The notes under the pieces were generated by a model. The model had not been told where the DNA came from and ran no database searches. It saw nothing but the letters and a program-made list of their open reading frames with translations. A program made the position numbers and the translations under genes. This document shows, one piece after another, positions 6,937 through 33,000 of a stretch of DNA of 64,000 bases. Origin of the DNA: Liolophura sinensis. Taxonomy: Eukaryota; Mollusca; Polyplacophora; Chitonida; Chitonidae. The first letter of the stretch is position 1, and each line of letters starts with the position of its first letter. The stretch lies in contig NC_088302.1 in the NCBI RefSeq assembly GCF_032854445.1, positions 34,007,979 to 34,071,978 on the forward strand. The letters are read 5' to 3'.

Positions 6937-7100
6937 CTAAGCCTTGGGTGTGGTACTATAATCTTCACCATCTGAGTCATTCAAGGGATCAACTTCATGG
7001 TCACTGTCTTCTGTGCTCAGCGGGTCAAAACCTTTGTGTGATGTAAAATAGTTGAAAACTGGCTTTTTGCCTTTTCCAAATGCACAGCACCTCAGCTTTC
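6937..7100 (-). CDS. PAM: PAM coding exon 22 (cytosolic tail and stop)
   Basis: Residues 919-972 encode a basic stretch, then NYFTSHKGFDPLSTEDSDHE and an acidic end closing at PKA and TAG. This matches the vertebrate tail (NFFASRKGYSRKGFDRVSTEGSDQE), which directs endocytic return and granule sorting and is phosphorylated at the STE-SD cluster. Here that cluster is an acidic casein-kinase-like site. Confidence 0.95.
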
Positions 7101-10100
7101 CTGAAATATTTAAAATAGGTGGATATATAATTCGGCTCAAAAACGTGGAACAGATACATTTATACATATATGTATGCTTGATCAATAATCATTAATTGTT
7201 TCTATTTAGAAGCTCTGTCTTCAAGAATGTTTCGCTTATATGGTCATGGTTAGGTTTATGGGTGGAGAAAACCACAGACTTTCACCACATCCCTGACAAT
7301 CCTCCTGATTCAAAGCCACAGCCGAAGCCCCAAGAGCTGGAGTTGACAAGGGATTTAATTAATTAAAAAGAAAAGACAACACTACCCCAAATTATGTATA
7401 CACGTATCAGCTCATATGACTGAAAAAAAAAAAAAAAAAGACACCTTTTATGTTTAAGATGTACCGCATAACCAAGATATCGCAGTTCAGAGTAAGCAAA
7501 AACCCCAATGCAGGGAGAATCAAATGGGATGCCATATAGATATTTCTACCAATCCAGGCAATGCATCTGTTCCACTGTGACTTAACGCATTCATAGTTGA
7601 CCATTTAGTGTTAAATCAGCTGTTTTCCTGCTGATTATTGACAATTCTGACATACTTTAAAGCAATTTTCAATGAGAAAGTAATAGTGGAATATGACTTG
7701 TGTTATTTCCCAAGATCTCAACCAGGAGGTCACAATGCGTATAACTCTAATGGGGACAGTACTTTGCATGATAAGGGAGCGTCTTGCCTCAATCTAATAC
7801 TAAAGAGCGTAAGGTATGGATGACGCTACATCGTGTTTCAGGTCTCTCTAAAAAGGAGTATCCCATGGCCTCTCAAGAATTCCAGATTATTAGGTGATTT
7901 GTAGTGTTGCCAAGCATGAAACAAAAAAATGCCTGTGCCCCATAAGTTGTGTGTACCCCTCTTCTGAAATAACACTGGTTATATTTTTTCTTGTCCTTTT
8001 TTTTTAAGGGTCTTGTGGTTCTAGTGTGCCAGCAATTCCACCATCAGAGGACCAAAATGGGGACACGTTATTTTACAAAATATGATTTGAAGTCACTGAC
8101 TACATGTAGTCATAAAGTACAACAACCAAAACTTTTATATTTCAGAGCAACATATACTGGCAATGAAAATAAACTGGAGTTGACATTTACAAGTATGTAA
8201 AGTACATAAATGTTTATGAGAAGTACATGTACACATACATGTAGGTAATGTTGTGTAGCAGGACATTTCCAAAGCTACAGAAAAGGCACTTAAAGGCAAA
8301 TAAAGAAAATACAGACATATCTTTGCAAATCTCATAGATTTACATGTAACAATAGCATATTTTCAGCAAATCTCAGAGACATAACAATGGCATAATTTGG
8401 CAAACCTCAGAGATATGCCAATAGAATATTTTTTTGCAAATCTCAAATATAACAATAGCATTTTTGTAGCAGATATCAGAGATACTGTATAACAATAGCC
8501 TATCTGTATTTTTTTCAATCTCAGCGACATAACACTAGCATAATTTTTGCAAATATCAGAGACATATAAACAATAGTATACTTTTGCAATTTCAGAGACA
8601 AAAATTGGCATAATTTTTGCAAACCTCAGAGACATAAAACTGGCAGAGTTTTTGCTAACCTCGCAGACATAACACTTACATATTTTGTGCAAACTTCAGA
8701 AATATAACAACAGTACACTTTTGCAATCTCAGGCAGGCAACACTGGCATACAAGCACTGACCTTTGGAATGAAGCCTTGCGAGCACTGTGATGACAATCA
8801 TTAGGGCAATGGGCACTATGAGGAGTACCCCGATGATGATGGAGGCCTTGGAGTTCTCCTCTTCTTCATCTGGCTGTGGTTTACCAGACACTGTTGACTC
8901 CTCGTGTCCTTCATTCTCATGCACATGAACACCTCCCTTCTTCATTGTCTCGTGATCACCTAAACCTGCTAGAAACAACCACTCATTTCAGCTCTTAACT
9001 CTTTCATGTGTGGGTTCAATCCCAGCCTGTGGCAGGGAATCCATCAATTGTTCACATCATTGTTCATAAGGTCACTGTAATAACAATTTGTGGTTGACAA
9101 TGATGATGTCATCGATTGTACAGTCTCACATTTGTTAAAGACAATTTGCCCTCCACCAACATGGTGTTCAGATCTGTTTATTTATTTATTTGATTGGTGT
9201 TTTAAGCCGTACTCAAGAATATTTCACTTATACAATGGCGGCCAGCATTATGGAGGGAGGAAATCGGGCAGAGCCAAGGGGAAACCCATGACCATCCGCA
9301 GGTTGCTGAGAGACTTTCTCACGTACGACCACATAGGAAGCTGGCTGTTGAGATCTGTACATCACATGTGGGAAAATATCAGCACAAGTTGTTGACTGAT
9401 TTTTAAAACATTTCATTCACATACCACATTCGTTGATTTCATGGTTGGATGAAACCACTGCCATTTTGCGAGTTTCACGGACCCAAGAATGGTGGAGGTA
9501 TGAGGAATCTAAAAAAAGTCCTGCCCAAGAAACTGAAGCAACAGCTTGTTTTTCTAGATGAAAATTTTAAATCTTTTACAACTACCACCTGCTGTATAGC
9601 AGAATAATAGTATTCAAAACATCAACTGGGACAAGGCTTTCATGTGTGGAATAAAAGGTTTCTCAGATTCTCACAGACATACATGTAACATGTAACATCC
9701 CATGTTTCCACGGCTTTCAAAGACAATGAGGACCTGTCACACACCAGGCAGCAGGGCCTTGATGTCATTTTATTGATGTCAAATGTTCCTTTCCCAGCCT
9801 ATCATGAGGATGTCACATTAAACACAGTACGACGTTACAGTAGAAACTGACACATGGTAACATTAAAGACGTTGCGCTACAATCCATTTCTGACATAACA
9901 ATGGCTCAAGGTCCTGTTTCACTCTAGCATAACCTGATATTAAAACATATGCCGCCTCCTCATTAAAATACAAAGTTTAAGGTAAGATTTTACCAGCTTA
10001 TTTAACCGTGCATTTCAAACATAGCACAATATAATATAAGTTCTGGAAAAGAATATCAAGTTCTTTCAAAAACTCAAAAACTATCCAATAACTCTTTTTC

Positions 10101-13100
10101 TGGAACTGTCAAGGTCTTGAACAACTTGAAACAACTCATGAAATACAAGTAATTTTCAGAATATCAAAGTGGTAATGTCATTGTATACCTGGTATCAGGA
10201 CACTGACCTTTGTCATGCTTATTTTGTAGCGTAGAGGCCTTGATGAACTTCCAGACAATATTTGGACCTATCTCTCCCACATATACCTCTTCTTGTTCTC
10301 CATAAACGGCCAAAGTGTGGGGAAAGGAAAACTCCTGTAAATACGCATGTATTGTGAGAAGGAGAAAACAGAGATCTTAAAAATATCTATCAGTGTCTCT
10401 TATAACCTAAATGTACAAAAAATGACTTCAGCGATGTCTAATAACAGTTTTGTTTTACACACAAAATGAATTTTGCTTCAATGTCGTAGGAAGAAATGAA
10501 AATAAATATAAAAATGAAAAATCATCCAATTAGAAGGAAATGTGAGTTGTCCCAGCAATTGTTCCAAATTGTTAAAAATTGCTGAACACATACATGTGTT
10601 TGTGTGATTGGAAAAGCCTTCAAAAAAGAGGATAATTGTGTTGAAAAAACATTAAGATCTGCAAAACAAATTTTAGATTTTATTTTAAAGCATTTTTGGA
10701 TTTTTTGATTTCAGGTTGCCCAGTAAAACACAAAATAAACTTGGTGTCGCCTAATCTAACATTCGTGAACACCGGTGAATTCATTCTAATTGTGACAAAC
10801 ATTAATGTTTTCTTTTATTTATTGGATTAGTATAATAAACAAAGTAGTCATGAGTTTTACATTTACAAAAGTGTTCACATTACTGGGTAGAGGAAACCGG
10901 ATCCCTCGACCTTTATTAGGTATGATTGACCAACCTCCAGTTGGGCTGGATATAAACATATTACCGACTTCATCAAGGGCCCATCAAGTTAGCTGCAGTA
11001 AGCCTGCCCTTACACCATCCGAGCCAAATTATGAAATATCAGTGCATTAATATGTTAATACCTATAACAAAGGTGTCCACGTACTGTAATTCTTCAACCT
11101 ACTGACATTTTTGCAAAGGTGTTTATCGAAGCAAATTCTGAGGACATCATTACGTGTACCCTGATAAAATTATGTTTGTGAGATGCCCTGAAATTGGTCA
11201 ATCCCAAAAATGTACTGTGGTCTCCAAAATCAAACTAAAAACACGCAAAAAACTGCCCTTAAAGTCGCTCTTTCATCTGAGAAAAGATTGAGGAATTAGG
11301 GTACATGAATAAACATTCTATCTGTGTCTATCCTGTCTGCTTGTTAAGAAGTAAACATCTCTGTACACTGTATGAATGTACTGTCTGTTGTCATTCAACA
11401 CATACCTTCTTATCATTGGAGGGTTGCCAAGTACCAGTGATCTCCCCTGAACTAAGGTCAATACTGAAGCCCTGAGACTTGATTCTCTCTCCATTAGCTA
11501 ATGGTTTGTGGTATGGGCTCTGTCCATTCACTGCAAACAGCATTCCCCCTGGTGGACGAATTAACAAATAATTATTTTCACACATGAGACTTGAGTTTCT
11601 TGTGGTCCATTAAATCATCCAATTTGCCAGGGTTGTGAAATGTGCGTAGTATGATAGCACAAACTACATGCATCTACACTGCATAGGTTTTCGAGCCATA
11701 ACCAGACCTCCCCCCCCCCCCCACCAAAAGTTACATGCAATTGCCGAGCAAAGTTTAATAGATTTAACACGATTTCCTTCATTGTGAATTGAGAAGTAGA
11801 TGATCACGCCACTATTCATCAAATGATAACAGCTGGGTTTTAACACCATTTTAAGACAATGTCAATTACAGAGGAACTCCAGTGTTGAGATCTAAAGTCT
11901 CAAAAGCAGGGTTAAACAACATGGGTCGAGACGTTAAGAACTGCTTTCTAAAACTGTACCAAAAATTTACCATCGTTGTTAGTTTCGGAGGTTAATACAA
12001 AAACCAAAGTCATTTCCAATTTTGCCTGGCGTGATGTCATGCAAGAACAACTGGTGTCACCCACTGCTGACGTATAGCCACAAATGATGTACTTTCAAAT
12101 ACTCACGACCTCACTCCAGCATAATTGCCTGATCTGACGTCGTATCTACCTGATTCATTGTCATATAAGGAATACTATCACGTCACATCAGCAAAATTGT
12201 ATGGAAACTGACAAAGAATTTGCTCTTGAAATTAGAGGAATAATGGTGTTATTCATCATAAATCTTTTTGAACTGCTGTGTTAGCCCTGCTCTGTTGGGT
12301 ATCCTTCATATCATTTAAATATTTCCACAGGGTTTCTCTTGGGACAGAAATAGCACTTTAAGACTTGTTTTTTTTAAATGTTTTTTTTTTCTAGCAAGTT
12401 GGAGTTGGAGAAGTTTTAAATGCGCCCCTATGACATTTCAAATTTTACTTCATTGCGAAACAATTTACTCAAATTTTTTTGGCACTTGAGTGCAGTGCTT
12501 ACGTAATTGGAATATACAATGTATAATATTTAGAATGGTGGACATTGCACCAGATATGCATGAGACAAAATTTTAATTGGTAACCTACTTTCAGCAGCGG
12601 TTTGATCCAATGAAATCATCACACGTCTGTGCAAAGGAGATTATTTTAGATGTAGTAGCACATAAATTATCTCACTCAGCATGTTTTTACCTTCTTTCGG
12701 ACAGTATGCCACACCAAAGACTTGGCCTCCAAATCGAGGACTGGTGATTTGCTTCTGGAAGTTTCCTTCCAGGTCATAACACTGTATTCTTCCATTTTCC
12801 CGGTCACTGGCACACAACAGGTTTTTCTCCTCTGCCACTGTGATACTGTGTACAATGTTGAATGTGTTGGTGGGTGGATAGCCATCATCTGAAGGTTAAA
12901 TCCACGACACATACATGTAAATCTTGCTTCAACATACATGTAAACAGGCCAGGTGACGTGGGATACTTCAGAAACATTCCAGCCGTAGTTCACAAAATAA
13001 ACCAAATAAATTTGTTTTCTCGAAAAAAAAAAAAAAAAAATCAGGTGAAAATCACTGTATTAAAATTTTACATAAAATTTTGTCAATGACTATAAAGTTA

Positions 13101-16100
13101 CTTGTTATACCTGATTCTCAGTGCTCTACTGATCTAAGAAAGCTGTTTAGAGGGACTTTTCTTTGAAAGGTCCAAGCTGGGATTGAGACAGATCTGGGTC
13201 AGTCAATTACTACCACCAAGATCACAGGAACAGTGAAGATTCACTGCCTGAGGCTGGAATCAAACAATCTGACAAACAGTGACTGAGAGAGAAGCATTTT
13301 AATAAGCATTTTTACATGACCCACCTCCTTACGCAAAAGAAAACCCTCAAATAGCATCACCTGTTATACAAAATTAACGCACGCATGAAAAGCTGACAAA
13401 TGTATCAACTGCTCACTGGATTGTAAGAGAATACCACTACATGTACTATCAACTCTGTTTTCAATCAGAGAAATGTTTGCAGTTAAAAATGGCATTTTTT
13501 TTTTTGCCATTTTATCACACTTGTTGAATAACACAGATGTTTGCACTTTGGTGGAGACAGGATGCAACTCATTAGCAGTTTCAGGTATGAGACCAAGGAT
13601 TTGTGAGCAAGTCTGAAAGTATATGTAGCCATGGGTCAAGGGTAGCGCCCTGGGGGGTTCAGTGGGAAGTGGCCATCCCCCATCACCCGAGGAAAACACA
13701 ACAATACTACTTTTCAGCTGAAATTAAAGGCCCCCTGACAATGAAACATGCAAATTTTCAAATTAACAAAAACGCATTAAAAGAAAGTGAAGTCAAATCA
13801 AAATACATCAGACGAAACCAATTTACCTATACTTCTTTTTCTTCTGTCAGTTGCAAAAGTGGCAAAGAAATTTCAGTGCATTTAAACTCGGTCAGGTAAA
13901 CTGATTAACAGTAATAGCCAGCTTTTTCAGAGTTCCTTTTCCCGTCTTCCAAATAACTATTCGCAGTCAATGTTATTCAAACACTACTGGACAAAACTAA
14001 CAAGATAATTAACCATGGGAGTAACCTACATGTAGATATACCCAAATTCTGTAACTTTTTCAACTGCCTCTGCAACCGATAGTTTGAAACTATAGTCTGA
14101 GAGAACTATGGGGTGTAGAGAAATAACCTGCACAGTTTTATGAAGCTTGCATCTTTAATGACACAAACAAATCATGTTTTAATAGCATCATTTTCAAAAT
14201 CATTTTATGCATAAATTCCACTAAAAAAAGTGTTTTAGTGGTTGAAAAGGTTGAAGATTTACAGGAAGAAGTATGTTCACTTGTTTTTATGTTGATCTAA
14301 GTTTTCAAATAATGCTTTTAAAACCATTTATGCGACATGATCTCAATTCTGAGTTTTATTTTTGGTATGAGTGGGATAGACAACTAGATTTTCAGTAATC
14401 TCACCAATGACCCATCTTTGTTGGCAAATACAACTGAAAGTACATTCATATCACATTTTTCCCAGTCCACAGTTGTGGTTATTCTGAGACTTAGGTTCAC
14501 ATCTTTTAAATTTTAAATTTACATCCACTGCCAGTAGGCTGCTAACATTCGACCAGCTCTGTAAATATTAAAGACAATATCTAGACCTACAGGCCTACAT
14601 GTCGCTTACGTCCTGATCGGAACACAGAACAAATTCACTTCTAAACAGAGATCTTTCAATTACATTAGTTAGCACCACTCACACCTTCACTCAATAAAGC
14701 GAAAGTTAAACTGAGAAACCGGACCTCTGTCCACATGATGATAGACTCATGGTCCTGGCTATATATACAATATATATATACATGAGAGTACTTTTCATTC
14801 ATAATCAGGAAACCTTACCCCCTACCCCCACAAACTTTTCTTTACCCCACAAATTTTTTATTCTCAGATTTACACTGATCTCAGAAATGGCAAAACTTGT
14901 CAAATTACTTCACCACCTCTGAAAATCCTTACAAGAAGAACATAACTGAAAAGTAATAAAATTTTACCCACTTTGAGCTGGCTCCCCCAGGCTTGTGCTG
15001 CCCCAGGAATTCAGGAATTGGCCATCTTTAGAATACTTTATTATCCTCGCATTGCAGTAGCTGTGTAACAGATCAAGAAAATCTTTATTGTTCCACTGAT
15101 AAAATGCACCATAAATTTGTCATTTTTTAACTCTGCAAGAGTTTTAAGTAGGGAAAACTTGGTGAAGCCAAGCACGAAGTATCGAATTAAATGAAAAACC
15201 ATTCTAAAACCTTAAGTTTTGGAACCTAAAGACATGCCAGCAGGATCCAGGTTCAATAGGCTTCTGGGCTGGTTGAAGGTGTACATCAAAGCACCTCTAG
15301 ACACATGCTAGTTTTACTATATTTCACCAGAAGTTTGATACATAAAAATGCACTTTCAGAAGCAAATAATGGTATTAAAATGACACTTCCGATGGCAACA
15401 CTTAAGTTTTTCTGATTAGGAATTAATCAAACTCCACAAATAAATCTTCAGTGGCACAATAAAGTGAATCAAGCGGAATCAAGCAAAATTTATCCCTTGA
15501 AAAATCCTAAACTTTAGGTGAAATAAGGTAATGACACCAGTGATGTTGGCCATAAAACTAGTACACGTACATGTACACTACATGCCACAATACCCAAAGC
15601 TTGGACAGTTAATAATAGGTTAAGCATATTTCCTAATAGTCTTTTTTCTCACCCATCAGCCACGAAGAATTCTCCAGTGGACAGGACAGCCACATCTGCT
15701 GGCTTACAGAAGTGTGTGTCATCGTGACCAGGAACAAACCTCTCTCCCAACACCAAGTCAGGCTTGTCACTCCCAGGAGGATAACGAAATACCTGCGAAT
15801 ACACAGTCAGATACTATACAGGAGGACAGCAAAATACCTGTAAATACACAGTTCGATACTGTGACACATACTGCTATCCAGGAGGACAGTGAAATACCTG
15901 TAAATACACAGTCCGATACTGTGACACAAACGGCTATCCAGGAGGACAGCGAAATACCTGTAAATACACAGTCCGATACTGTGACACAAACGGCTATCCA
16001 GGAGGACAGCGAAATACCTGTAAATACACAGTCCGATACTGTGACACAAACGGCTATCCAGGAGGACAGTGAAATACCTGTAAATACACAGCCAGATTCT

Positions 16101-19100
16101 ATGACCTACAGGGCTATACAGGAGGATAACGAAATACCTGCAAATACACAGTCAGATACTGTGACACACACGGCTATACGAGAGGACAGCAAAATACACA
16201 GTCAGATACTGTGACATACAGGGCTATACAAGAGAACAGCCAAATACCTATAAATACACAGTCAGATATTGTGACACACACGGCTATACGAGAGGACAGC
16301 GAAATACACAGTCAGATACTGTGACATACAGGGCTATACAAGAGCACAGCAAAATACCTATAAATACACAGTCAGATATTGTGACACACACGGCTATACG
16401 AGAGGACAGCGAAATACACAGTCAGATACTGTGACACACACAGCTATCCAGGAGGACAGCGAAATACCTGGTAACTGAAGTGAAATATTGTTACAAAACA
16501 CTGATGAAACCTCCAACCACCCACACGACCCCCTCCTCACTGCTGTTTTTTTTCAACACAGGAAATATCGAGAAACACTTGGGTATATAAAACAGATGTA
16601 CTCAATCAGTTTTTGAGATACATTGCTCACATTATTTGTACATGAATACACAAACCCTTTCGCCTAAGTATAAATCAAGCTGACCCGACTGCATCGCAAC
16701 AAGAGCATTGTAAATGTCCCGGGAAATAAGACTTTCTAAACATGCTTTTGAGGACTGAGTTTTCTGCTTGTTAAAAATACTGTGCAATCACTGAACTATT
16801 TTGGTACAATGAACTAAAATTCCAATTCTTCCACCATGTATTTAAGTGTGAGAGTAGCACATCCATGCACTGGACCCACAGACATCATATGTATATCATG
16901 ATTTACGAGTAATTATATCATGCCTGTTAAAAAAAGGTTCACATATCTGTGTGCACACACAAAAAAAGGTATGAACATGAAATCACAGTTCAAGGCATGG
17001 CAGCTTTCTGGGAACATGATCAAATGTTGCATTTATTTATTTATTTGATTGGTGCTTTACGCCGTACTCAAGAATATTTTACTTATATTCTACAATGGCG
17101 GACAGCATTATGGTGGGAAAAAAACAGGCAGAGCCCGGGGGAAGCCCATGACCATCCGCAGGTTGCTTCCCACTTATGGTCGGAGAGCTGGACTTGAACT
17201 CACAGCGACCGCATTGGTGAGAGGCTCTTAAGTCATTACACTGCGCCAGCGCGCTAACCAACTGAACCACAGAACCACAGAGGCCCCCATATTTAAGCCT
17301 GACACATATTTCAAGCGTTCCATGTCCATACCTGATGGAGAGCGACATCAGTAAGCCAGATGTTACCAGAACTGTCCACTGTTATCCCATGGGGCATGTA
17401 AAATCTGCAAATAAACACATTTACCTCTATTTAGTTTCCGTTTCAACGACAAGTACTGTATTTCATCTCAAGTTCGGTATGTAAAAATGGACGTCTGAAG
17501 CCAACAGGTCAGTTACTTTGATTAATCAAACTAAAACTCTTAAGTGGGGCATGTAAAATCTGCAAATAAACACATTTACCTCTATTTAGTTTCCGTTTCA
17601 ACGACAAGTACTGTATTTCATCTCAAGTTCGGTATGTAAAAATGGACGTCTGAAGCCAACAGGTCAGTTACTTTGATTAATCAAACTAAAACTCTTAAGT
17701 GGCTCCTTAAGTTGGACGAGTCAATCAGAATCATGCAAAATGTGTCACTGGAAAAATGCCAAACATTAAGTGAAACACAGCACATGTAGTCATTTGATCC
17801 AACAGTATTCAAAGTGCTGTTTAGCTTTGCCAGATTCTTTGCTGTTGGCATATTAAGTATCATTTTAAGGCCTTTATGTGCTTTTGAAAGTGGATTTTTA
17901 CAGGCCAAACTTAGGTATAAAAATATGGTAATTTTAGAAAACTTTTAAGAAAACTGACATACATTGCAGGATATCATCCTACCTTCCAAACAAGCATTAA
18001 AAATCTTTTTAAGATAAATAGAACACTTGAAGTAAAATGGTCATATATATGTAGAATAGTTCTATTACACGTGTCCTGGTCTTGAGGTAATGGTTGTAGA
18101 GCCAGAATTAGGTCTGTGTATGTTTAATAGCGTAACTGGTGTTTTATAATACTTTGAACTGTTCATTTCAAATCTACATGTGTTAAGATTGCTGTTCATC
18201 CACATACTGTCCAGCTCCCCATTGCCTCAGCACTCGGCCAGCTCTGTCCATCTTCACCAAAGTATTATCCTTGATCGGATCGTTTTGATGCAAGAATCTA
18301 TTGACCACGTTGAAAGAACTGAAACATAGGCAGTGATACAAACATTGACCTGGCAATTACATATGCCACAAAGAGTTAAATACAGAAGGCAACAATATTT
18401 TAAACATTCTCTAAAGTTTAACATGTTAATGAGTCAACTTGTTGCGAGCCCACCACCCAATGCTTTAGTCTTTCTATTTATATATTTATTTAATTGGTAC
18501 CCTGTTTTACCCTGTACTCATGAATATTTCACTTATATGACGGCAGCCAGCATTATGGTTGGAGGAAAACGCTGGCAGATCTTCCCAAAAATGGCCGGAG
18601 AGGTAACCAGCATGAGCTGGACTTAAACTCACAGCGACCACATTGGTGGAAAGCTCCTGGTTCACTGTGCCCGGCTGGCATGCTAACCCCCTCGGCCACC
18701 TTTAGTCTTTCTGCCTTAAGCCTTAAAACATGCTATACATATCAGAAAAGTTGTCGGAAATAATATGAATTTGAGTTCATACATATAGATAAAAAATTGT
18801 TATTATGATTATATATTATAATGTTGATGTAAATGTATAACCTGGGAAAAGTAATTTCTGGTTGAAATTATATGTAACTACAAACTGAGAGATTTCACTC
18901 CCCACGCAGAGGTTTGTGTACCTTAATTATGGTAATCAATTTTTACAGTTGACTGTAGAGTCAGTTGTTAGGATCTTGTTCAATACATGCTGACACTTAC
19001 CCTCCCGCCCAGATTCTCTTCCCGCGATGAAAGACATAGAGATTTCCGTCTTTGTCCGTGGCTACGCCTCCGACCTGTCCAATGATAATGTCATGTTCTG

Positions 19101-22100
19101 GCCAGTCTGGAGCAGGGACCATGGCTGGAGGAGACAGACAGAGGACAAGACATCAGGGACACAGTATACTACAAATATGTACATGCACATGAGAACATGG
19201 TGAATTTAGAGTACATGTACATATGTACATGCACATGAGAACATGGTGAATTTGGAGTACAAGTACATGAGAACATGGTGAATTTAGGGTACATGTACAT
19301 ATGTACATGCACATGAGAACATGGTGAATTTAGAGTACATGTACATATGCAAAACACATGAAACAAGAGTCTTGATGTAAGTCATACTCTTGCTAGTAGA
19401 ATGGCTTTATGAAAAAAATAGTTTAAGGCAAGTTGTCACAAGAAGCATTCAACCACAATGTAGACTATTCAATTCCTCAACCTTTTCACGTATGAAAGAG
19501 CAACTTTCAGTGCAATTTATGCACATTTTTAATTTGATTTTCAGACACAAAACAGCATTGGCTGGATTGGCTATTTTCAGGGCTTCACAAAAAGTATAAT
19601 TTTATCAATCAATACAGAATAAGGCCTTCAGAATGAGCACCTTGCAAACATGCACAAAGGTTGAAGAATTATAGTAGAGTAGTAGATAAATTACAATGTA
19701 AAGTTATTGTACACAGGGTGCTAGTATATGGTATATATCAAGATATAGACATATCCTTCATCATGCAAAGTTGTTGTAGGCTGACGGCGACCACTTGCCA
19801 AGGCAACTGCTTTACCAAGGCAACTGCTTTGCCAAGGCAACTGCTTTACCATGGCAACTGCTTTGCCAAAGCAACTGCTTTACCATGGCAACTACTTGGT
19901 GCATGCACACATAAAAGTGTGTCTTTAACATGTGTTGCCTTGCCAGTTGTACTTAACTTTACAGCCTACCATACCTTTTTGTAAATATTCCAAGGCACAT
20001 TGCAATCAAGCGTGCAAAATACAAAAAAAGTACATACATTACATGAACAGCACTGGGAAGACAATATAAAGTAGGGCAAAATACACCTACACTGTACAGA
20101 ACTTTGTTTTTCACAGATGTGTAAATATAAGGATTATAATAGGTGGTATTTTTGTAAACAAGGGTCATAGAAAAGCCACATAATAAAGAGTCAATTAATA
20201 ATAAATACAGAATAGAATTTAAATGTACATGTTGAAACTGCAAATACACATGGAAACTACAAATACACATGGAAACTGCAAATATACGTGGAAACTACAA
20301 ATACACGTGGAAACTGCAAATATACATGGAAACTACAAAGAGACTTTTGATTTACAGTTAAAGTTTGTATGAACAAATGTTTAACAACACAAGCATCATC
20401 AGTACACTGTGTAACCAACTGGTCAAGGAAATAATTACATCCAACTGAAAACTGGTAAAACAATATCAAGTCACAAAGAACTCACAGACTGTGCAATAAT
20501 GTTGATAAGTTAAAAACTAACATGAAAATAAACTCCTTTAGAACAAGCCGCTTTGACTTCACAAAAGTGGTCAAAATCAAAAAGCACATGCATTGTGACA
20601 ATAAACATGCTTGTCTCTTTGAGTAAAAAAACCCCATAAAACTTAAGATCCAAACAGCCGTCTGAATGCAACACTGTAGTTACACAGCCATGTACATGTA
20701 GAAAAGTACTGTAACCTGGTAAATGTAGAACCAAACAGCACTGTAACTGCAGAACCAAACAGCACTGTTACTGCAGAACCAAACAGCACTGTAACTGCAG
20801 AACAAAACAGATTGACACAGGACTGTGCTATCAGGACTTGTAGACTGTTTGAAGATGGGACAAAAACACACATAGCAAAACAAAACTTCAAACCAGTTAG
20901 GTGGCCAAATATTGTCACAGGACATCAGAAATGCTCAAAAGCACACAAAATGTGAATCTAAAGGTGACATATGAAAAAAAATGTAAACAATGAACACACA
21001 TTTGAATTCACATAAAAGTAAATCAGAATGCACTGTTTACTAAGGCATTAACAAGCAATCCACATACACATATATATACATGTACAGTGTACCTGTATGT
21101 GCTCTGTACATGAACTTGCTGCATTATACATGCCCCAGGTGATAACATGGGTAAAGAGTAACATGCCCAAAGGCTGAGTGTTGAGGGTAGACATGCAATA
21201 TGGGATTAACTTTGAACAGACTATCTTTGGGATAATCAAGCAATGTAAAGCTCCGGGCCCCAAAATCACAAAGTGATCTTAGAATGAATTCAAAATTTCA
21301 AATCGCTTTAAAATTGATATTTCTTATATAACAAGGTCAAAATATGGTTTGACAATGTAATTTCTAAATAACTTATTGTGAAACAAATTTCAGCTAATTT
21401 AAACTAATGGAAAGCAACAAACCAAGATTAACAACTGAATTTTGTCTAAGATTGCTTTGTGCTTCCAGCAAATTTCTTTCATTCCCTGACATAAAAGCTT
21501 TCACAGAGCATCATTTTCATACCCATTTAATAAACTTCCTTTCTGAAAGGTTACAATGCCACCTTTAAAGTTGGGATTAGAATCTACATTTTCCAATTTC
21601 CATAATAAAAATATGGAATGCTTTTATTAACACACACATAATATAATTCTCTTGTACCAGTGACAAAATAAAAAGCAGGAGATCAAAAGACATATGTAGG
21701 TTTGTTATAAAGATTACAACTTACAAAAACACAGAGGTCACAAATATGCATGACAATAATCAGCACTTTTGTGAAGGTAACATCAAAAAATTCTAAAATA
21801 TACACATTTTACATGTAGACGGGGAGGGTAGGGAGAGTCACAGCACATGGTAGATCACAACAGCATATCCATTTGTCTTCAACACCACACAGCACAGCAT
21901 TTACTGAAGCCAGGCCAGCATGGCACTTACTTTTGGGGACGTGAGCCCACTTAGTGCTGAGCTTCTCAGTCTTAACAGGCTTAGCACTGGGACGAGGAGT
22001 GACTGGGAGGGAGGGTCTGGCTGTGTGTGGTTTCCTGGGTGGTGCTTTCCCCACAGGTGCAGACTTAACAGGTTTGGGTGTCGTACGGGAGCGGGGTCTA

Positions 22101-25100
22101 AAACCTGGCCCCTTTTTGGCGCTCATGGATCCCCAACCATTCCCTATTCCTCCTACTGAATTCCTGATGGGTGAGGTAGTCTTCTTTCGCGTGACCGGTG
22201 AGTTTTGGCCTGCGTACTGATTGGCCAGGATTTCCTTCTCAGACTGGTGGAAGTATGGGTAGCGGTTCCTGTTGCGGCCTCGGTCTGTTTCCGTATCGTC
22301 GTAAAACTTGCCCATGTACCTGGGCTCGTAGTGCTGAGGGTAATCAAATGAAGGGTAATCTTCATCGTAAGGCTCAGAGTAATAATCCATACCTGTCAGA
22401 TCCTCTGACGCAGGGGGACCAGGTGTCAACTGGGTGCCGCCCTCTCTCCCCCCTGAGGGATGGTCGTGCCCGCCAGTCATCCCATGGTGGTGGTGGTGGC
22501 CCTTGGCTATCTCGTCCATGACAGGGTTTGGGGGCAGAGACTTGTCAGAGTCAGCAGGAATCTGCTTAACCAGGGATGGCAGATTGTTCCGCGAACACAT
22601 CCCGCTGGTCATCCCTGATGTTGAATCCGTGTAGTACATGATGTAAAAGTTACACATTTCATCATTAGCTGTCGAACTGAAAACATAAAAGTAAAGAAAA
22701 AGATCAAAACAAAGGTTAACTCCTTTAAACAGTTAGCCGAGATGTTCATATATGTGTGTACCAATAACTTCAGTTCATCACAAGACTGCACAAGCTGGTT
22801 TTCCCTTTTTCACTAATGAGTTTGAACTTGAAAAAGTTGATATGGCAAATATTCCACAAAATTGCTGCCTTACGGGTGCTGTCTTGTCCTGGAAACTTCA
22901 AAGTTCAAATTCTGAGCTAATGATGTGCCTGGTTCTGGTGGTGAGATAATTGTTTGTTAAGTCTTCAAATGGCAGTAGAAAGTTGGCTCAACAACTACGA
23001 TACAATGTACATGAGATGGACAGAGGCAAATGAAATTTGGTATGATGCTATCAGTGTGCTAACGGTGAGCTATTAGTGTGCTAATGGTGAGCTATTTGTG
23101 TGCTAGTGGTGAGCTACATGTATTTCCAGTGGCAAGCCCACCAGAACCTTCAGCCTTGGACTTCGCTGTTGCTGAACGCTGCTGTAGAAAGGCTAACTCA
23201 GTTTTATAATAGTGATATAAATCCTCTGTATTTCAACCGTCAGAAAAGACACATTCTGACTGATATATGCATCTTATAGGACCATTTAAGACTGCTTTGT
23301 GAAGTTTGATTAATTTCTCATCAGGAAAACTTAAACACTGGCATCAAAGGTGTCACTTTAAGACCTTTATCTGCATGCTTTTGAAATACCATTTTCACAG
23401 GCCTTAAAACATCAGCTGAAATACAGTAAATAACCATGGTAACTAGTGAACATACACTGCAGCAATCATTACTGAGTATTTTAAAAGCAAAAATTCTTAC
23501 CCCATGTATACTGTATGCCCTACTCCAGTTGAATTATAAGTGCAACGTGCCGCCTGAAATTTACAATGGGTTGAAATGTTCTTTTCAATAACACCAACTC
23601 ATTTGAATGCCAGTTTGAAATTGATCGCAACTGATTTACAAACCAATAAAGTATAATGAGTCAAAAGCTAACAAAAGTTTCATTTAAATTTACCACATTT
23701 TGGTTGACAAATTCAACATTTTTTTTATCTTAACCCTAAGAAAGGTGTTCTCAACATAACATTCAGTATTCACTGACATGTTTTATATTTTGGCAAAATT
23801 TAATTTTTGAATAATTCAGCTGCAAAGTTAGTCAGACATTATCCAATCAGCCCCTGACTACCAAAACTGCAGATTTGAATCTGGCTCTTGTTGGTTTGGC
23901 AGTGGATTTTATGTGTGGAGGTTTGGTGTGTACAAGGCAAAGTGCAGCAATTTGCTATGGACTCTATTTATTGACTTACATGTCTTTGATTGATTTTTTT
24001 TGCTGCACTCAAGAATATTTCACTTATACAATGGTGGCCAGCATTATGGTGTGAGGAAACTGAGCAGGGCCCCAGGGAAACCTTCTACCATCTGTAGGTT
24101 GGTGCCAAAACCTTCCCACAAACAAACGGAGAAGAAACCAGCCTAAACTGGACTTGAACTCACAGTGATGAATACAATGGACTTGGAGGCTCCTAGTTAC
24201 TACAGCTCATTAGCCAATAAAGCTTACTGCCATCATATATTAATTAAACTGATAAATTCTTAAATACAGCAAGCAGCAATTAAACGAAGTATTTAATGCA
24301 GTGAAAGATTAAAATGTCCATAGGTAAACCTGTCTCAACAAATATGGCTGGGCGAGTTCAATTTGACATAAAAATGTTACGATGTGTTACCAGTTTATCT
24401 CCAGGTTTTATCACAATTTTGTCCTTAGTTGGGTAAAACGCCTGAAAAAAAATAAACAAATAAATTTGTACACAATGTTAATAGTAAGTATGAATATATA
24501 AATGGCTTTTTTTCAATGGACTTTTCAAGTAGTTTCAAATACTTAAAATACAAATTCAAGTATCTCAAATGATAGTCACAATCTCTGCTTTCGCATACAA
24601 ACTGTGGCAACAGGCGCAGCTTGAATAGTTTTTAAGGTGATTTCGTATGGGTGGTACAGTTTTCCGTGGCATTCGACCAGTACACAGCCTTGTGTTGGTG
24701 CCATAACCTTCAGTCGGTGCAGACATCACTGATAATCAGACAACCCATCATGGATTCTTATAAATTTTCCACTGTCCGTCAGAATAAAAAGCGTAGCTTA
24801 AAATATTTCCACACAACGCACGTGTTTGTAAACAGCGTCACTGTCAGTCACGAGTAGTCCAGGGTGGAGACATCTATACTTTGGAGGCACAATCAGCAGT
24901 ATGCCCGACTGACACTGCTGGCGTCGTGCACAAGCCAGTCCTTGATATCTGGGAACTGCAGCCATTCATCGCTAAAACAACAGTTGCTTGGCATCTCTAA
25001 TGCTTTTTTTCACATACCAAATCACTCTCAATGACTACAGTGTAAGCTTTTACAGCCAAACCCAAAAATGGTGATATCAGCACCCTCTGGCGGAGAAAGG

Positions 25101-28100
25101 AAGTCTGTAGTGGTGCAAAACTATGACCGCATACATACCACTGGCGGCCGCTTTAAGTGCATGCCTGTTGCCAGTTGATTCACAGATTCTTATCACCATA
25201 AAAATGGTCAAATCAAAGTGTTTTCCAGTCCTTGAATTAGCAAAACAAAATTAAAGTACCTTCAAGGTTTTCAAAGACCCGTGCAAACCCTGAAATATAC
25301 GACAGTACTGATTGACACCTTACCTGAGGCCACTGTGGATTTCCCTTGCCTATTTCATGCCAGGTGTCATTGATCTGATATCCTGTAATGACTCGACCTG
25401 CAAAGGGTGCATTTCATATTAAACGCATGTACAGGACGAGGTACATAAAAAAGAATACCCTGAAAACAACTGCCAATGAAATAATGAATACATGTATTCA
25501 GGAAACACCACATAACTGGCCTTAAAACGAACTGTAAGGTAAGAAATGGCTTTTGCCAGGTAATCTCTTTACTACATGTATAATAAAAAAGTAGTGTTTA
25601 ACAAACCAGTTTTTTTACTTATCTTTTTCGCAAAAGACTCTTGATTTAAGGTATTTCCCAAACTTACGAAATTTTAGTGAAAAAGGGCTCAAAAAAGAAT
25701 TTTAAATGAGTGCAAGTACAGAGTAAAATCCCTTTAAAGGATTACTGTAACTCTTCAACCTTCTCACATGTTTGCAAGGTGTTTGTTTATTCAAGCATAC
25801 TCTTAGAACATCTGTGTAGACTGCTAAAATTATAGTCTTTGTAAAGTCCAACAATTGGACAATCCAACCAATGTAGTTTTGTCTCTGAAAACAAATCAAA
25901 GAGGTGCCTAAATCTCAATGAAAGTTGCTCTTTCATATGCGAAAAGTTTGAAGAATTAGGGTCTGTGTGAAAGGCTGGAAAATTATGTCTCTCATTAATG
26001 ACACTAACTTTATACATGTACATGTACTTACTCAGAGCATGGGCATGTGTCCTGTATCCAAATGGATAAATGGCAGATGGGCCTTCAAATTTACAGGATA
26101 CATCCAAATGAACCACTGCAACCACAAAATAAATATGATATAAGTTATGATCAAAAAAACTATCAATATTTCAGCTACAATGTACAGTGGTAATACATTC
26201 ACACATTCAGAATCAAATCAAGCCATACTCATATTACATAAACGAAATGATTTTGTTTGAAACTTATTAAATGTATTTATTAGGTTGCCTTTATACAGGT
26301 AAAAGTGATTTACATGGTTTAACAGTGGACTGTATCAATTCAGCTCTCAAACGGATACATACTAAAAAACTGATACACAAGTACTAACCTGGGGTATTGG
26401 GAGGGATGGACCGCATTGACATCATCAAAAATATCCCAGCTATATATTTTTGTCTGAAGAAAAATAAAAACATTCGATTGTACGGAAAAAAATATAATGT
26501 GAGTTATACCCCAATGCGGCCCCCAACGCTGGATTTGAGCAAGTCACCTCATTGATCAGGGGGCTACCTTGCCTTTAAATATTTAATTTATGTTCACTGA
26601 TTAGTGTTTTACGCTGTCCTCTAGAATATTTCACTTATTCAATGGCGGCCAGCATTATGGTGGGAGGAAAAGGGGCAGAGGCTTGGGGAAAACCCACGAT
26701 CATCAGCAGTTTAAATATTTAATTGTAACACTGACGCATAAATATGACTGAATACTACTGGGTCAAACGATGACAGGGTTCAAAATGTTTGGTTATTTAA
26801 CCCTGGATAATAGTCTCCAAAACTGGTTGATATGCTTCTTGTTTTCTCCATGGACAGCATTTATCTTCCTAGTGGCCGTCCCTGGTCGCAATAATGTTCA
26901 AAAGTGTAACACCCTTGTATTAACTTTAGCCTGGACTAGAGTGCTGTTAGTTTTTAATTAGGATGAGACTAAATGTAGTATTTAGGATTTATGTCTGGCT
27001 TAACTTTAATATACTTTTCAACAACTGGCCCCTGAATAATCTGGTTCCTTTCACAATCATATATGTAGCCATCAGCAGCCTAAAGGCTGTTTCCACCTGC
27101 AGCTGCTCATTGTTGTTGTATTTAATGGCTCATAAAAACATACTATGCTACTGTTATATTACGCATGCTTAAAAAGACCAGAAATGACAGATATTTGCTG
27201 TGTACTCTTACAATAAAGTTACCCATTCAGCTCTCATACAGCCTATGATCCCCAACTGGCGGCTTGTGACGGCAGTGAGAGAACATGACTGCCGGTCCAC
27301 CACCAGTCAGCACTGGTGAAATTAAAACGTCTTAAACTTTCCTTAGCAGTCCTGAAACTCAATCACTGGTCATCGGAGGTCATCTCGCGAGTTTATCAGG
27401 AACTGGGATTTATTCAATCCGAGTAAGATGTTTTGAGGTTGATTTTGAGGGCAGGATGATGTGTTACTTACAAAATGTAATTCTCATAACTAAGAGTAGT
27501 GTTTTTAATAGGTTGTCTAGGTCATTTATCAGGTTTATTGGCAGTACACCACTGGAATACATAAGCCGGTACAATGTCATCATATTTATTATCATCATTT
27601 AGCACTGTTTTACATACAGCTTAGCCTGTATTTACTTGATAAAGAATTTCACAATGAAACAAGGCGAGTCTAGCAAAAAAAAAATTACACTAGAAAGGGA
27701 CATAACTCTGCTTACCGCTGTTGTGAGATTTCCAGCTGTATCCCTGAGTAGTCTGCCTGTTCATCAGCTGAAAGACAAACATAACCAAATGTTACCTGTA
27801 TTATTCTCCCACAAATGGCTGTAAAATACATGTTTTAATTACCTTTACTGTATCTCATACTCAAGATACTACATGTACAATCAAAATTATTACAGTCAAC
27901 CAAAACAGTTTCGGGAGGTGAATGGGAAAGAATCATCAGAGATACAGGGAAACCAAAGTAATTCTACAATGTTAAATTTACTAGTGCACTTTAATTGGTA
28001 AACTTATAGTCATACAAACACTATAAATCAACACCTATGTGGTTCAGTGACCAGAAAAAAACCAAAAAAAAAACCAGGGAAAATTAAATAGTTAAAGCGT

Positions 28101-30000
28101 AATGTCAAAACACACATCACATAGTTTTGGGTAATCAAATCTGATTCTTCCTTTTCTTACTGAAAGCTTCACCAATTTCAATTTGCTTACCAGCAATAGC
28201 ATGGGCATAGTGAATCTGCATAACAACATAGTTCACATTCACATCATCTCCAAGCTGATAACCCACATCTGCAACACACAACAAAATCAACTAGTTTAAT
28301 TCAATGCATTCAAAGAATGATAGGAAATTCCTCATCACAGTAACTTGAGCCACATCTGCCAAAGCTACAAATTTTACTTCTTTCTTGACATTTTCCAATA
28401 TACTCGATACTTTCAATATAATACTCAAGATTGCTTTGCTTAGTTGTAACTGTATTTTCCACTAATACTCACCCGACGCAAATATATTTTATTAAATTTT
28501 GCTTTTGCAGCCGAAACTTTAGCAGGATATCATAGTACATGTTCCTTCAAACTGCAGATGGCCGTATGTTTCCCTGCATTTTTCACAGCAAAACACTGGT
28601 CTTCGCTGTATAACTGAAATATTCTTCAGTACGTCGTAAAACACTAATTAAATGAATAAATCAATCCTATACACAGCATGCTTTAAATGAAGCTGGCCTT
28701 CTCTGTCAACATTCTACATAATATATGTACATTACTTTAACAAATCAATGTTTTTTTTTTGCAAGACATAAATTGTCTTTGTTGTATGTTGTAGTTGTAT
28801 GTGTATATAAATGTATGAAGGTTTAAATACATATTTTTTAATTTTTTACGCCTTTGTTTTATAATACAACTGTTACAACTGTAACATGGTAATTGCGAGG
28901 TGGCTACTGTAGATACCACAAATCCGGCTTGAAATTCAAGACAGGTTGTTCAAAACTGTCTTTCACTAATACCAGATTTAACTTTAAGCCAAGTCTTCAG
29001 TTTCATACCCTGTCTAAAAATAATTTATTTATTTATTTATTTATTTATTTGATTGGTGTTTTACTTCGTAATCAAGAGTATTTCACTTTTCCAATGAAGA
29101 CTAGCATTATGGTGGGAGGAAACCCCAAAATAATTGTGTTGGATTACATAAAATATGAACTAAAAAATCTGTTGTCTTTCCATTTGGTGTCTGTACAACT
29201 GAACTGGTTGCTGGGTTTTGTTAAAATCATACACATATAGTATGACAGAGTACTGGTATTAGCTATAAATAAACTTTGAACAACCGGGCCCTAGTTTCAA
29301 TGGCAACAAATAAAGGATTTACAGATTCCTACCTTCAGGTAGATGAAGCGGAGGAGCATTCTTGGCCCAAGCAAACATGATCCCTCTTTCTCCATTGCAG
29401 ATGGACCCGCATTCCCTGAAGTGACAGACATATAACCTCAGTGAATATAAACATATAAATTCAGTAAATATAACCATATAAACTCAATGAATATAAACAT
29501 ATAAACTCCGTAAATATAAACATATAAACTCAGTAAATATACACATATGAACTCAGTGAATATAAACATATAAATTCAGTAAATATAACCACATAAACTT
29601 TGTGGAAATACACATACATGCAGCGACGTGGAAGCTATGCCCAATTTCCTCCCAGCACAATGCTGGTCACCGTCAAATAATTGAAATATTCTTGGTTATG
29701 AGGTAAAAACACCAATAAAATAAATAAATAAGTAAATCCTACATACAGCATGCTTTAAATGAAGCTGGCCTTCTCTGTCAACATTCTACAAAATATATGT
29801 ACATTATTTTAACAAATTCCTTTTTTGAAAGACATAAATTGTCTTTGTTGTAGTTGTATGTGTATATAAATATATATATATAGGTTTAAATACATATTTT
29901 TTATTTTTGTACACCTTTGTTTTATAATACAGCTGATGCAACTAATAACAAAAATAGTCAACATATATGTTGTTAAAATCATACCATGCTTGATATATAA

Positions 30001-30068
<68 letters not shown>

Positions 30069-33000
30069 GTAGGTCAATATTTTGTATACAGAAAAAGCCA
30101 AGAGATATGTACATGTAATAGCTTGCATGCTCTCCTTGTGCAGAGGTCTGTCTTCTTGTCTCTCCTGAAAGAGCTCACAAGTCTGATACAGATGTTTAAT
30201 TACATGTAACATCATCCAGAATAACTGTACCATCATAAACAGTGACATGTTGTTGTCATGTTACTGTGACCGAAGGAAGTTGGACATTACATAAGGGCCA
30301 AATTTTCCTAAATTTGATTTCATTCTTGGATCGTGTTTTAACTATGGAGACTAATGATAGTCCACTTATGGGCGATCTGTGATGCCAGGTACTGCGAAAG
30401 TGTTTTCTATTTTGTTGGAAATGCACGACTCAGTCAGTTGGTAGCTGAGACTCTGCGTTTGTGTATTCTTGTGAACATTATTGAAGACACACCTCGAATT
30501 CAACCAGGGCCTCCGTGGCTCAGTTGGTTAGCACCCTAGCACAGCGTAATGACCCAGGAGTCTCTCACCAATGCAGTTGCTGTGAGTTCAAGTCCAGCTC
30601 AGGCTGGCTTCCTCTCCAGCTGTAAGTGGGAAGGGATGCAGCAACCTGCGGATGGTCGTGGGTTTCCCCCGGGCTCTGCTCAGTTTCCTCCCACCATACG
30701 TGAAATATTCTTGAGTACGGCGTAAAACACCAATCAAATCAAATCCAATTGAGCCTACTCGTTTGGTAAGACATTGCTCATTCATTAACTATTCACAAAT
30801 TACATCAATTTTCAATTGTATTAGAAAACTTCACCTCAGCATCCCAAAGCTGTCTTAAACTTAAGTAAGACTTAATCTTAGCTTGTACATGTAGTATTAT
30901 TTCCAAGCCTAGAATTAAACTCAACACCAATTTTCAATTTTTGTTAGGATAATATAAAAGAGTATTTTAAGAATGAAAGTAAAAATTGTCTTTTGACAGA
31001 GTATGGAATCAATAGATTTGAAAGGTCTGTTTTGCAGAGAGTGCAGCTTGAAATAATAAACATGTACAAACATACATATGGTACCAAATTCCCTCAGAGG
31101 GCAATGATCTACGTTTTGTTGAGTTATTTTGCACACTGACTCACCAGACTCCATTATATTTGTACGGTAATGAGCAGGCGTACAGCAATATGTGGTGGGC
31201 TGTTGAGGCTTCTGCCAAGGCCTTGTAACCAACTGTAAAAGATAAGCAGATGATCACAACAAACCCCTAACTCAGCAATGAGATTACATTTATAAATTTA
31301 CTTATCAAACATCATATTTAACAATGTTATATGTGAGAAAGACTGTGCAAGTGGCCACACAAGCGTCATCGACTGCTTTAATATTGTCACCAATGCACCA
31401 CTAATAGTGACACATACAAATTCCCAGTCCCAAGCTAAAATCTTAATGTAGTAAGGCCAATGAAAAGACATACATTTTATTTAAATGGAGTGAGGTCATT
31501 GAAGAGATGCAACTTAAAGGAATGAGGTCATTGAAAGAAAAGCATCTTAATGGAGTGAGGTCATTGAAGAGACATTCATCTCAATGGGGTGAGGCCATTT
31601 CAAGATATGCATCTTAATGGAGTGAGGCCACTGAAAAGACATGCATTTTATTTAAATGGAGTGAGGTCATTGAAGAGACATGCATGTTAAAGGAGTGAGG
31701 CCACTGAAAGAAATGAGACTTAATGGAGTAAACCCATAAAAAGACATGCATCTTAATGGAGTGAGGCCATTGCAAGACATGCATCTTAATGGAGTGAGGC
31801 CACTGAAAAGACATGCATGTTAAAGGAGTGAGGCCACTGAAAGAAATGCATCTTAATGGAGTAAACCCATAAAAAGACATGCATCTTAATGGAGTGAGGC
31901 CATTGCAAGACATGCATCTTAATGGAGTAAGGCCAATGAAAAGACATGCATCTTAATGGAGTGAGGCCACTGATAAGACATTCATCTTAATGGAGTAAAC
32001 CCATAAAAAGACATGCATCTTAATGGAGTGAGGCCATTGCAAGACATGCATCTTAATGGAGTAAGGCCAATGAAAAGACATGCATCTTAATGGAGTTAGG
32101 CCACTGATAAGACATTCATCTTAATGGAGTAAACCCATACAAAGACATGCATCTTAATGGAATGAGGCCATTGCAAGACATGCATCTTAATAGAGTAAGG
32201 CCAATGAAAAGACATGCATCTTAATGGAGTGAGGCCACTGATAAGACATTCATCTTAATGGAGTAAACCCATACAAAGACATGCATCTTAATGGAATGAG
32301 GAGTAAACCCAAGACATGCATCTTAATAGAGTAAGGCCAATGAAAAGACATGCATCTTAATGGAGTGAGGCCACTGATAAGACATTGTTGTTCAATGCCA
32401 TATTTATTGAATTTTTCAATTACATCACACAAGTGTCAAGTTGGCCGAGGGCTTTCCCACCAATGTGACATGATTTTATTTATGTATTTAGAACAAATTT
32501 TGCAGTAAACTTTAGCCACACAGACTGCATCTAGAATATCTGTACATACACCGAATTTCGCAGGCAATAGCTACACGTGTTATTACATGGTCCTAATCCT
32601 GCATTATTTTCCGGACCTCACTCATTGTCTCCCCTAATCTCAGGGGGGCGCTAGCAAATTCTGTTTTCTGCCATGCAATACATGTAAACACCCATGCTGT
32701 TACAACAGGCCTAACATGCTAAGCGAGAAGTAGGTCACTTAAAATAAATGACCCAATCAAGGTATGCTGTGAGACGCTCTCTGATGATATGTTTGGGCAG
32801 CCTGTAGGAAGCAATCGCGCACTTTTCGTTTAAAGGTCTGCATTGAAGGTCAAGCATCTTGAAGTGAGATTTGCGGGTTATGAGAGAGACAAGTGTCCAC
32901 GTGTTGGCAATATCATTATAAAGAAAGTTCACATCAAGAAGCAAAGTTTTGCATCAGATACATGTGCCAAGTGCTTATTTTGACTTTAAGTTACATAGGC

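Follow-up and report, generated by a model that had tools for sequence, protein, structure and literature searches.

A mirage-type minisatellite across the splice acceptor of PAM exon 16 in the chiton Liolophura sinensis

The window analysed here is a stretch of 64,000 nucleotides (nt) from contig NC_088302.1 of the chiton Liolophura sinensis, and its minus strand carries the gene for peptidylglycine alpha-amidating monooxygenase (PAM). At the start of coding exon 16 of this gene, a tandem array (15774..16470, minus strand) repeats the end of intron 15 together with the first ~20 nt of the exon, and presents nine decoy acceptors ahead of the true acceptor at 15792. Judged by its sequence, the array is a minisatellite of the type known as mirage in amphioxus, and thus a known phenomenon in a further organism. 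It is probably tolerated and without useful function, and we infer that the nine decoys are skipped in nearly all transcripts.

The gene was identified by a protein search that took in proteins of ~504-1605 amino acids (aa), a range outside which a 470-aa isoform would lie; a second protein search was taken at the best 120 of its 730 matches. The window gave a 99% match to P0125, a PAM-like isoform X2 of L. sinensis with the listed domains PF01082, PF03712 and PF01436. All 817 residues of P0125 were matched exactly by a spliced model of 22 coding exons with GT-AG introns (6940..33707, minus strand; PHM, PAL and membrane anchor), and the PHM and PAL halves were both recognisable by their domains in this single protein, which identifies it as a PAM. 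Exon 16 (15653..15792, minus strand; VFRYPPGSDKPDLVLG...FFVADG) starts at the acceptor cgcag/GTATTT, the slash marking the exon edge, and matched the rat PAM structures 3fvz (E 1.8e-07) and 5wm0 (E 3.8e-07) of the PDB. Intron 15, of phase 0 and 1,539 nt, is bounded by this acceptor and by the donor CATCAG/gtatgg (17331) of exon 15 (17332..17404, minus strand), the lengths of the PAM introns ranging from 273 to 3268 nt. The gene with its PAL half, the rank of the exon as 16th and the acceptor at 15792 had been proposed in the initial annotation and were confirmed by this exact model; 15792 is likewise the exon 16 acceptor of P0125, one annotated protein isoform.

Structure and origin of the array

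The array was delimited with Tandem Repeats Finder (TRF), motif positions and an analysis of intervals. TRF reported a period of 60 with 11.4 copies between 15814 and 16470. From 5' to 3', the edge-to-edge intervals were 110, 110, 110, 60, 60, 60, 60, 60 and 45 bp, each 110-bp composite unit being formed by a 60-bp unit and a 50-bp unit that carries no splice site. The 50-bp halves look as though TACAGGTATT had dropped out between two GTATTT words. The 60-bp unit first proposed is thus correct for five of the nine intervals, and has to be amended for the three 5'-most and for the last. The exonic portion of each unit comprises ~20 nt, beyond which the decoys have ATAG where exon 16 has GAGTGAC.

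The motif YAGGTATTT was found at 13 sites in the window, ten of which lie in the array region and correspond to the nine decoys and the true acceptor. Shuffled windows contained 1.89 sites on average and 6 at most, so that none of 100 shuffles reached 13. Seven CAG/GTATTT and two TAG/GTATTT decoys had been listed together with the true acceptor in the initial annotation, and every one of these coordinates proved exact. The central units are homogenised: decoys 16017 and 15957 are identical over positions -21..+23, and 15897 agrees with them at 98%. The edges of the array are the least alike, with 57-68% for 16467, a value partly due to its unique flank, and 57-89% for 15792. We also observed, on the plus strand (15624-16214), a stop-free frame of 196 codons running antisense across the array and exon 16, which is probably a by-product of the 60-bp periodicity.

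We compared these features with those of published systems; statements on PMC3087553, PMC3902484, PMC4974935, PMC8605326 and PMC11068029 refer to excerpts of these papers. Mirages are minisatellites that extend across intron-exon boundaries and carry AG/GT signals; they are described in amphioxus for Adh3 and the globins BflGb6 and BflGb9 (PMC3087553, through which Canestro 2002 is known as the founding paper), and the repeats of lancelet PGBD5 have been likened to them (PMC3902484). In the excerpts of both papers they are reported not to disturb regular splicing. The chiton array shares their structural characteristics. Its units are tandem duplications across an intron-exon boundary; AG/GT is found in many but not all of them, nine decoys having kept YAG/GT and the 50-bp units having lost it; and the homogenised centre and diverged edges correspond to concerted evolution inside the array, its boundaries excepted. 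As in BflGb6, the repeated piece joins the 3' end of an intron to the start of the exon that follows. Unit lengths are 10-72 bp (Adh3) and 150-160 bp in amphioxus, and 60, 110 and, for a second duplication at exon 15, 155 bp in the chiton. Unlike in amphioxus, the host is a mollusc and two cases are located at neighbouring acceptors of one gene; set against the mirages of the excerpts, the chiton array has nine intact AG/GT decoys, all of which stop at codon 8. Length instability and reverse-transcription PCR are on record for the amphioxus mirages, whereas the chiton array is known from the sequence of one assembly. No mollusc mirage was found in the literature searched, where mirages are a lancelet matter and where subscription papers were mostly not covered, and it would be unsafe to present the array as the first one reported in molluscs. 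The array extends the mirage phenomenon from lancelets to molluscs.

The repeated exonic bases encode VFRYPPG in exon 16, and the orthologues read VFRFPPNSDKPD (P0127) and VMRFPPGSDTPD (P0128) at that place. Because the repeated exonic codons are conserved in distant orthologues, the derivation of the array from the edge of exon 16 as its founder is well supported by the sequences compared, in agreement with the birth from the exon edge initially suggested. The reverse direction, with an intronic repeat captured as a new exon start, was rejected, the exonic part being conserved coding sequence. Further information was obtained from P0001, a short Logan protein of another source with 89% identity over exon 16, which reads MWQYLIVYLQ ahead of VFRFP and which, judging from these residues, reads upstream through the intron end. 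MWQYLIVYLQ agrees with the same-frame unit 16137 at 7 of 10 residues and with the sequence now flanking the true acceptor at 5 of 10, and no other position in the six frames of the window reaches a match of 7 of 10. A relative therefore has, at this acceptor, an intron end resembling that of the units. Separately, P0002, a protein predicted from a 45.6-kb contig that belongs to another source, passes from exon 15 to exon 16 in a continuous open frame (VALHQVFRFP), and intron 15 seems to be absent from that source. We propose that tandem duplications fell by chance across the 3' splice site of PAM exon 16, and that they would then have expanded and been homogenised, the outermost 3' copy presumably staying as the working acceptor.

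Decoy acceptors and the choice of the true site

Acceptors were scored using a matrix built from the other 20 acceptors of PAM, which gave a score of 7.28 to the true acceptor. Moving away from exon 16, the first five decoys, all of them CAG/GTATTT (15837..15838, 15897..15898, 15957..15958, 16017..16018 and 16077..16078; minus strand, as for all decoys), scored 8.51 each. The next one, CAG/GTATTT at 16137..16138, obtained the top decoy score of 10.02 and resembles the true edge more than any other copy does (89% over 44 nt). Both TAG/GTATTT decoys (16247..16248 and 16357..16358) scored 4.01, and the 5'-most decoy, CAG/GTATTT at 16467..16468, which adjoins unique intron sequence, scored 4.53. 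The acceptor score was thus above that of the true site in six of the nine decoys, the remaining three having 4.0-4.5. Motif strength as the cause of correct acceptor choice was rejected on these scores.

We then examined what the use of a decoy would entail. All nine decoys share the frame of exon 16 and reach TAG at codon 8 of the PAL frame, consistent with the truncating frame initially ascribed to them. The peptide ahead of the stop, announced as VFRCPPG for each decoy, is VFRCPPG in only three of them, VFHCPPG in two, and VFRYPPV, VFCCPPV, VFCCALV and VFGCSLV in one each. A transcript spliced via any decoy was computed to encode a 470-aa product, with its stop at codon 471 and 922-1552 nt ahead of the last junction. 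As predicted from its sequence, this product would retain PHM and lack the greater part of PAL; of the three zinc-binding histidines, two would be lost with it if, as we assume, their positions are as in the rat enzyme. A stop so far ahead of the last junction is a normal target of nonsense-mediated decay and, because of this distance, decoy-using messages would be expected to be removed by that pathway.

With six of the nine decoys looking stronger than the true site, the array constitutes a natural test of how a spliceosome settles on one acceptor out of ten that are nearly identical. The simplest account would be exon definition, in which the donor of exon 16 is paired with the nearest acceptor, yielding a 140-nt exon as against 185-815 nt via a decoy. 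A branch-point-like CTGAC may add to this. It is kept at -15 by the true acceptor, by decoys 16137, 16247 and 16357 and by the exon 2 acceptor, and is absent from the five decoys nearest exon 16, where its loss could help the true acceptor to win. This branch-point argument is a weak one.

Several points weigh against a tolerated array whose decoys are skipped. The use of 15792 rests on the annotated gene model (P0125), and motif strength, with six decoys outscoring the true acceptor, favours wrong sites. The comparison of the flank left of 16467 with three units gave scores that were reached in 6, 148 and 284 of 1000 shuffles. Regarding the branch point, 6 of the 21 PAM acceptors have no YTNAY in their AG-free stretch, three distant decoys retain CTGAC, and three of the five losses concern near-identical copies and are probably a single event.

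Exon 15 duplication and the repeat background

A 155-bp tandem duplication, with two copies at 100% identity, was detected by TRF and by a scan for local copies across the acceptor of exon 15 (17390..17702, minus strand). The upstream copy contains a decoy edge at 17559, which matches the true one at 31 of 32 nt and has the same acceptor score (10.27 for both). Its use was computed to give a stop after FYMPHLRVLV and a 449-aa product. This duplication is a younger case of the phenomenon seen at exon 16 and, since exon 15 shows a like duplication, the exon 16 array is not special to that exon.

We calculated how often splice edges have a copy of themselves nearby, a local copy being defined by at least 26 of 32 matching nt. 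Among the 42 splice edges of PAM, two have a local copy; both are acceptors (2 of 21), and none of the 21 donors has one. The corresponding figures were 30/400 (7.5%) and 132/1500 (8.8%) for random positions of the window, and 170/1500 (11.3%) for positions in 20 other stretches (L004-L023) sampled every 2-3 Mb along the window's contig. For PAM, the idea that splice edges attract repeats beyond what chance would give was consequently rejected. Tandem arrays with a period of at least 10 cover 27,153 of 200,000 bases (13.6%) in the 20 stretches and 8.9% of the window, which suggests a genome with a very high minisatellite content. With minisatellites this dense, an occasional repeat over an exon edge is expected. 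The array is thus a dense minisatellite background meeting an exon edge, with no evidence of attraction or purpose, which suggests that such duplications are ordinary in minisatellite-rich genomes and bears on models of intron gain. We also searched Pfam with 10 of the 70 open frames overlapping array edges in 22 stretches; none of the ten matched, and no mirage gene beyond PAM was found among them.

Alternative readings and further observations

The decoys might regulate splicing by diverting a share of PAM transcripts to the 470-aa product (PHM intact, PAL broken) or to decay, the length of the array setting this share. We regard this as highly improbable. Such a role would fit the common frame of all nine decoys, their identical product length, the position of their stop, 922-1552 nt ahead of the last junction, and the six scores above that of the true acceptor; however, frame and stop follow from the homology of the copies, the annotated isoform uses 15792, copied edges are no commoner than the background, and the amphioxus precedents splice normally in the excerpts of PMC3087553 and PMC3902484. 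The tuning of splicing by copy number put forward in the initial annotation is not supported, given the acceptor of the annotated protein, the background level of copied edges and the regular splicing in amphioxus.

The units could also act in recursive splicing as zero-length exons (CAG/GTATTT): a decoy used by mistake would rebuild a donor after exon 15 and be respliced to 15792, leaving the mRNA unchanged. CAG indeed ends exon 15 and GTATTT starts every decoy, the CAG decoys reach a donor score of 4.13, which is above that of 3 of the 20 other PAM donors (range 3.5-10.6), and the distance of 675 nt from 16467 to 15792 falls inside the range of PAM introns. Against this, GTATTT is a weak donor compared with that of exon 15 (8.56), neighbouring units are 60 nt apart, far under the shortest PAM intron, and ratchet points are described as abundant in long introns (PMC8605326), intron 15 having only 1,539 nt. 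The array resembles the Drosophila ratchet points of that paper by its acceptor and donor motifs placed back to back, and differs from them by its weak donor, its short intron and the arrangement of its copies in an array. We consider recursive splicing very unlikely. The same holds for the idea of the array as a self-correcting splice buffer, in which decoy use followed by a second splice to 15792 leaves no trace; if true, such a buffer would let an acceptor minisatellite grow without cost, and mature mRNA cannot distinguish the recursive route from direct splicing.

An intron birth in progress, in which an upstream copy of the boundary is or may become an added exon or intron, seems very unlikely. 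The geometry is that of the intron gain in potato RdRp (PMC4974935), where the duplicated piece likewise crosses an intron end and an exon start, and of the model in PMC3087553, and AG/GT is present in every full unit. The new potato intron is spliced out, whereas the annotated chiton mRNA has no added intron: P0125 is explained by 22 exons with neither an extra exon nor an extra intron, and thus shows no new intron in the mature transcript. Moreover, the in-frame stop at codon 8 of every decoy means that a retained copy must end before it.

The assembly of the window comprises 632 contigs and 609,464,459 bases, of which 58,388,612 belong to the window's contig; the published assembly of L. 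sinensis, first named L. japonica and corrected in PMC12441733, is given as 609.5 Mb in 632 scaffolds (PMC11068029). An assembly artefact, with a wrong copy number from collapsed or expanded repeats, is extremely unlikely: the HiFi coverage of only 14x (PMC11068029) and the complete identity of the exon 15 copies would speak for it, but the units differ at many sites, the mean PacBio HiFi read of 8,347 bp (PMC11068029) greatly exceeds the 0.7-kb array, and a search of the whole assembly, with very common words skipped, found the array at this one place only.

Finally, two observations were made elsewhere in PAM. At ~21960-22393, isoform X2 leaves the exon of the PHM-PAL linker at donor 22393, and the open frame runs well past it (GMDYYSEPYDEDYPSFDYPQHYEPRYMG...); from this reading frame, a PAM isoform with a longer linker beyond 22393 is likely. 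In the introns, alike pieces of open frame (QPADGHG, IMLAAIV, SEIFMSTG etc.) recur at 17079-17330, 18510-18701 and 9231-9416, and the copy downstream of exon 15 (17079-17330) starts with a tRNA-like stretch. We take these recurring pieces to be a putative interspersed repeat resembling a short interspersed nuclear element (SINE).

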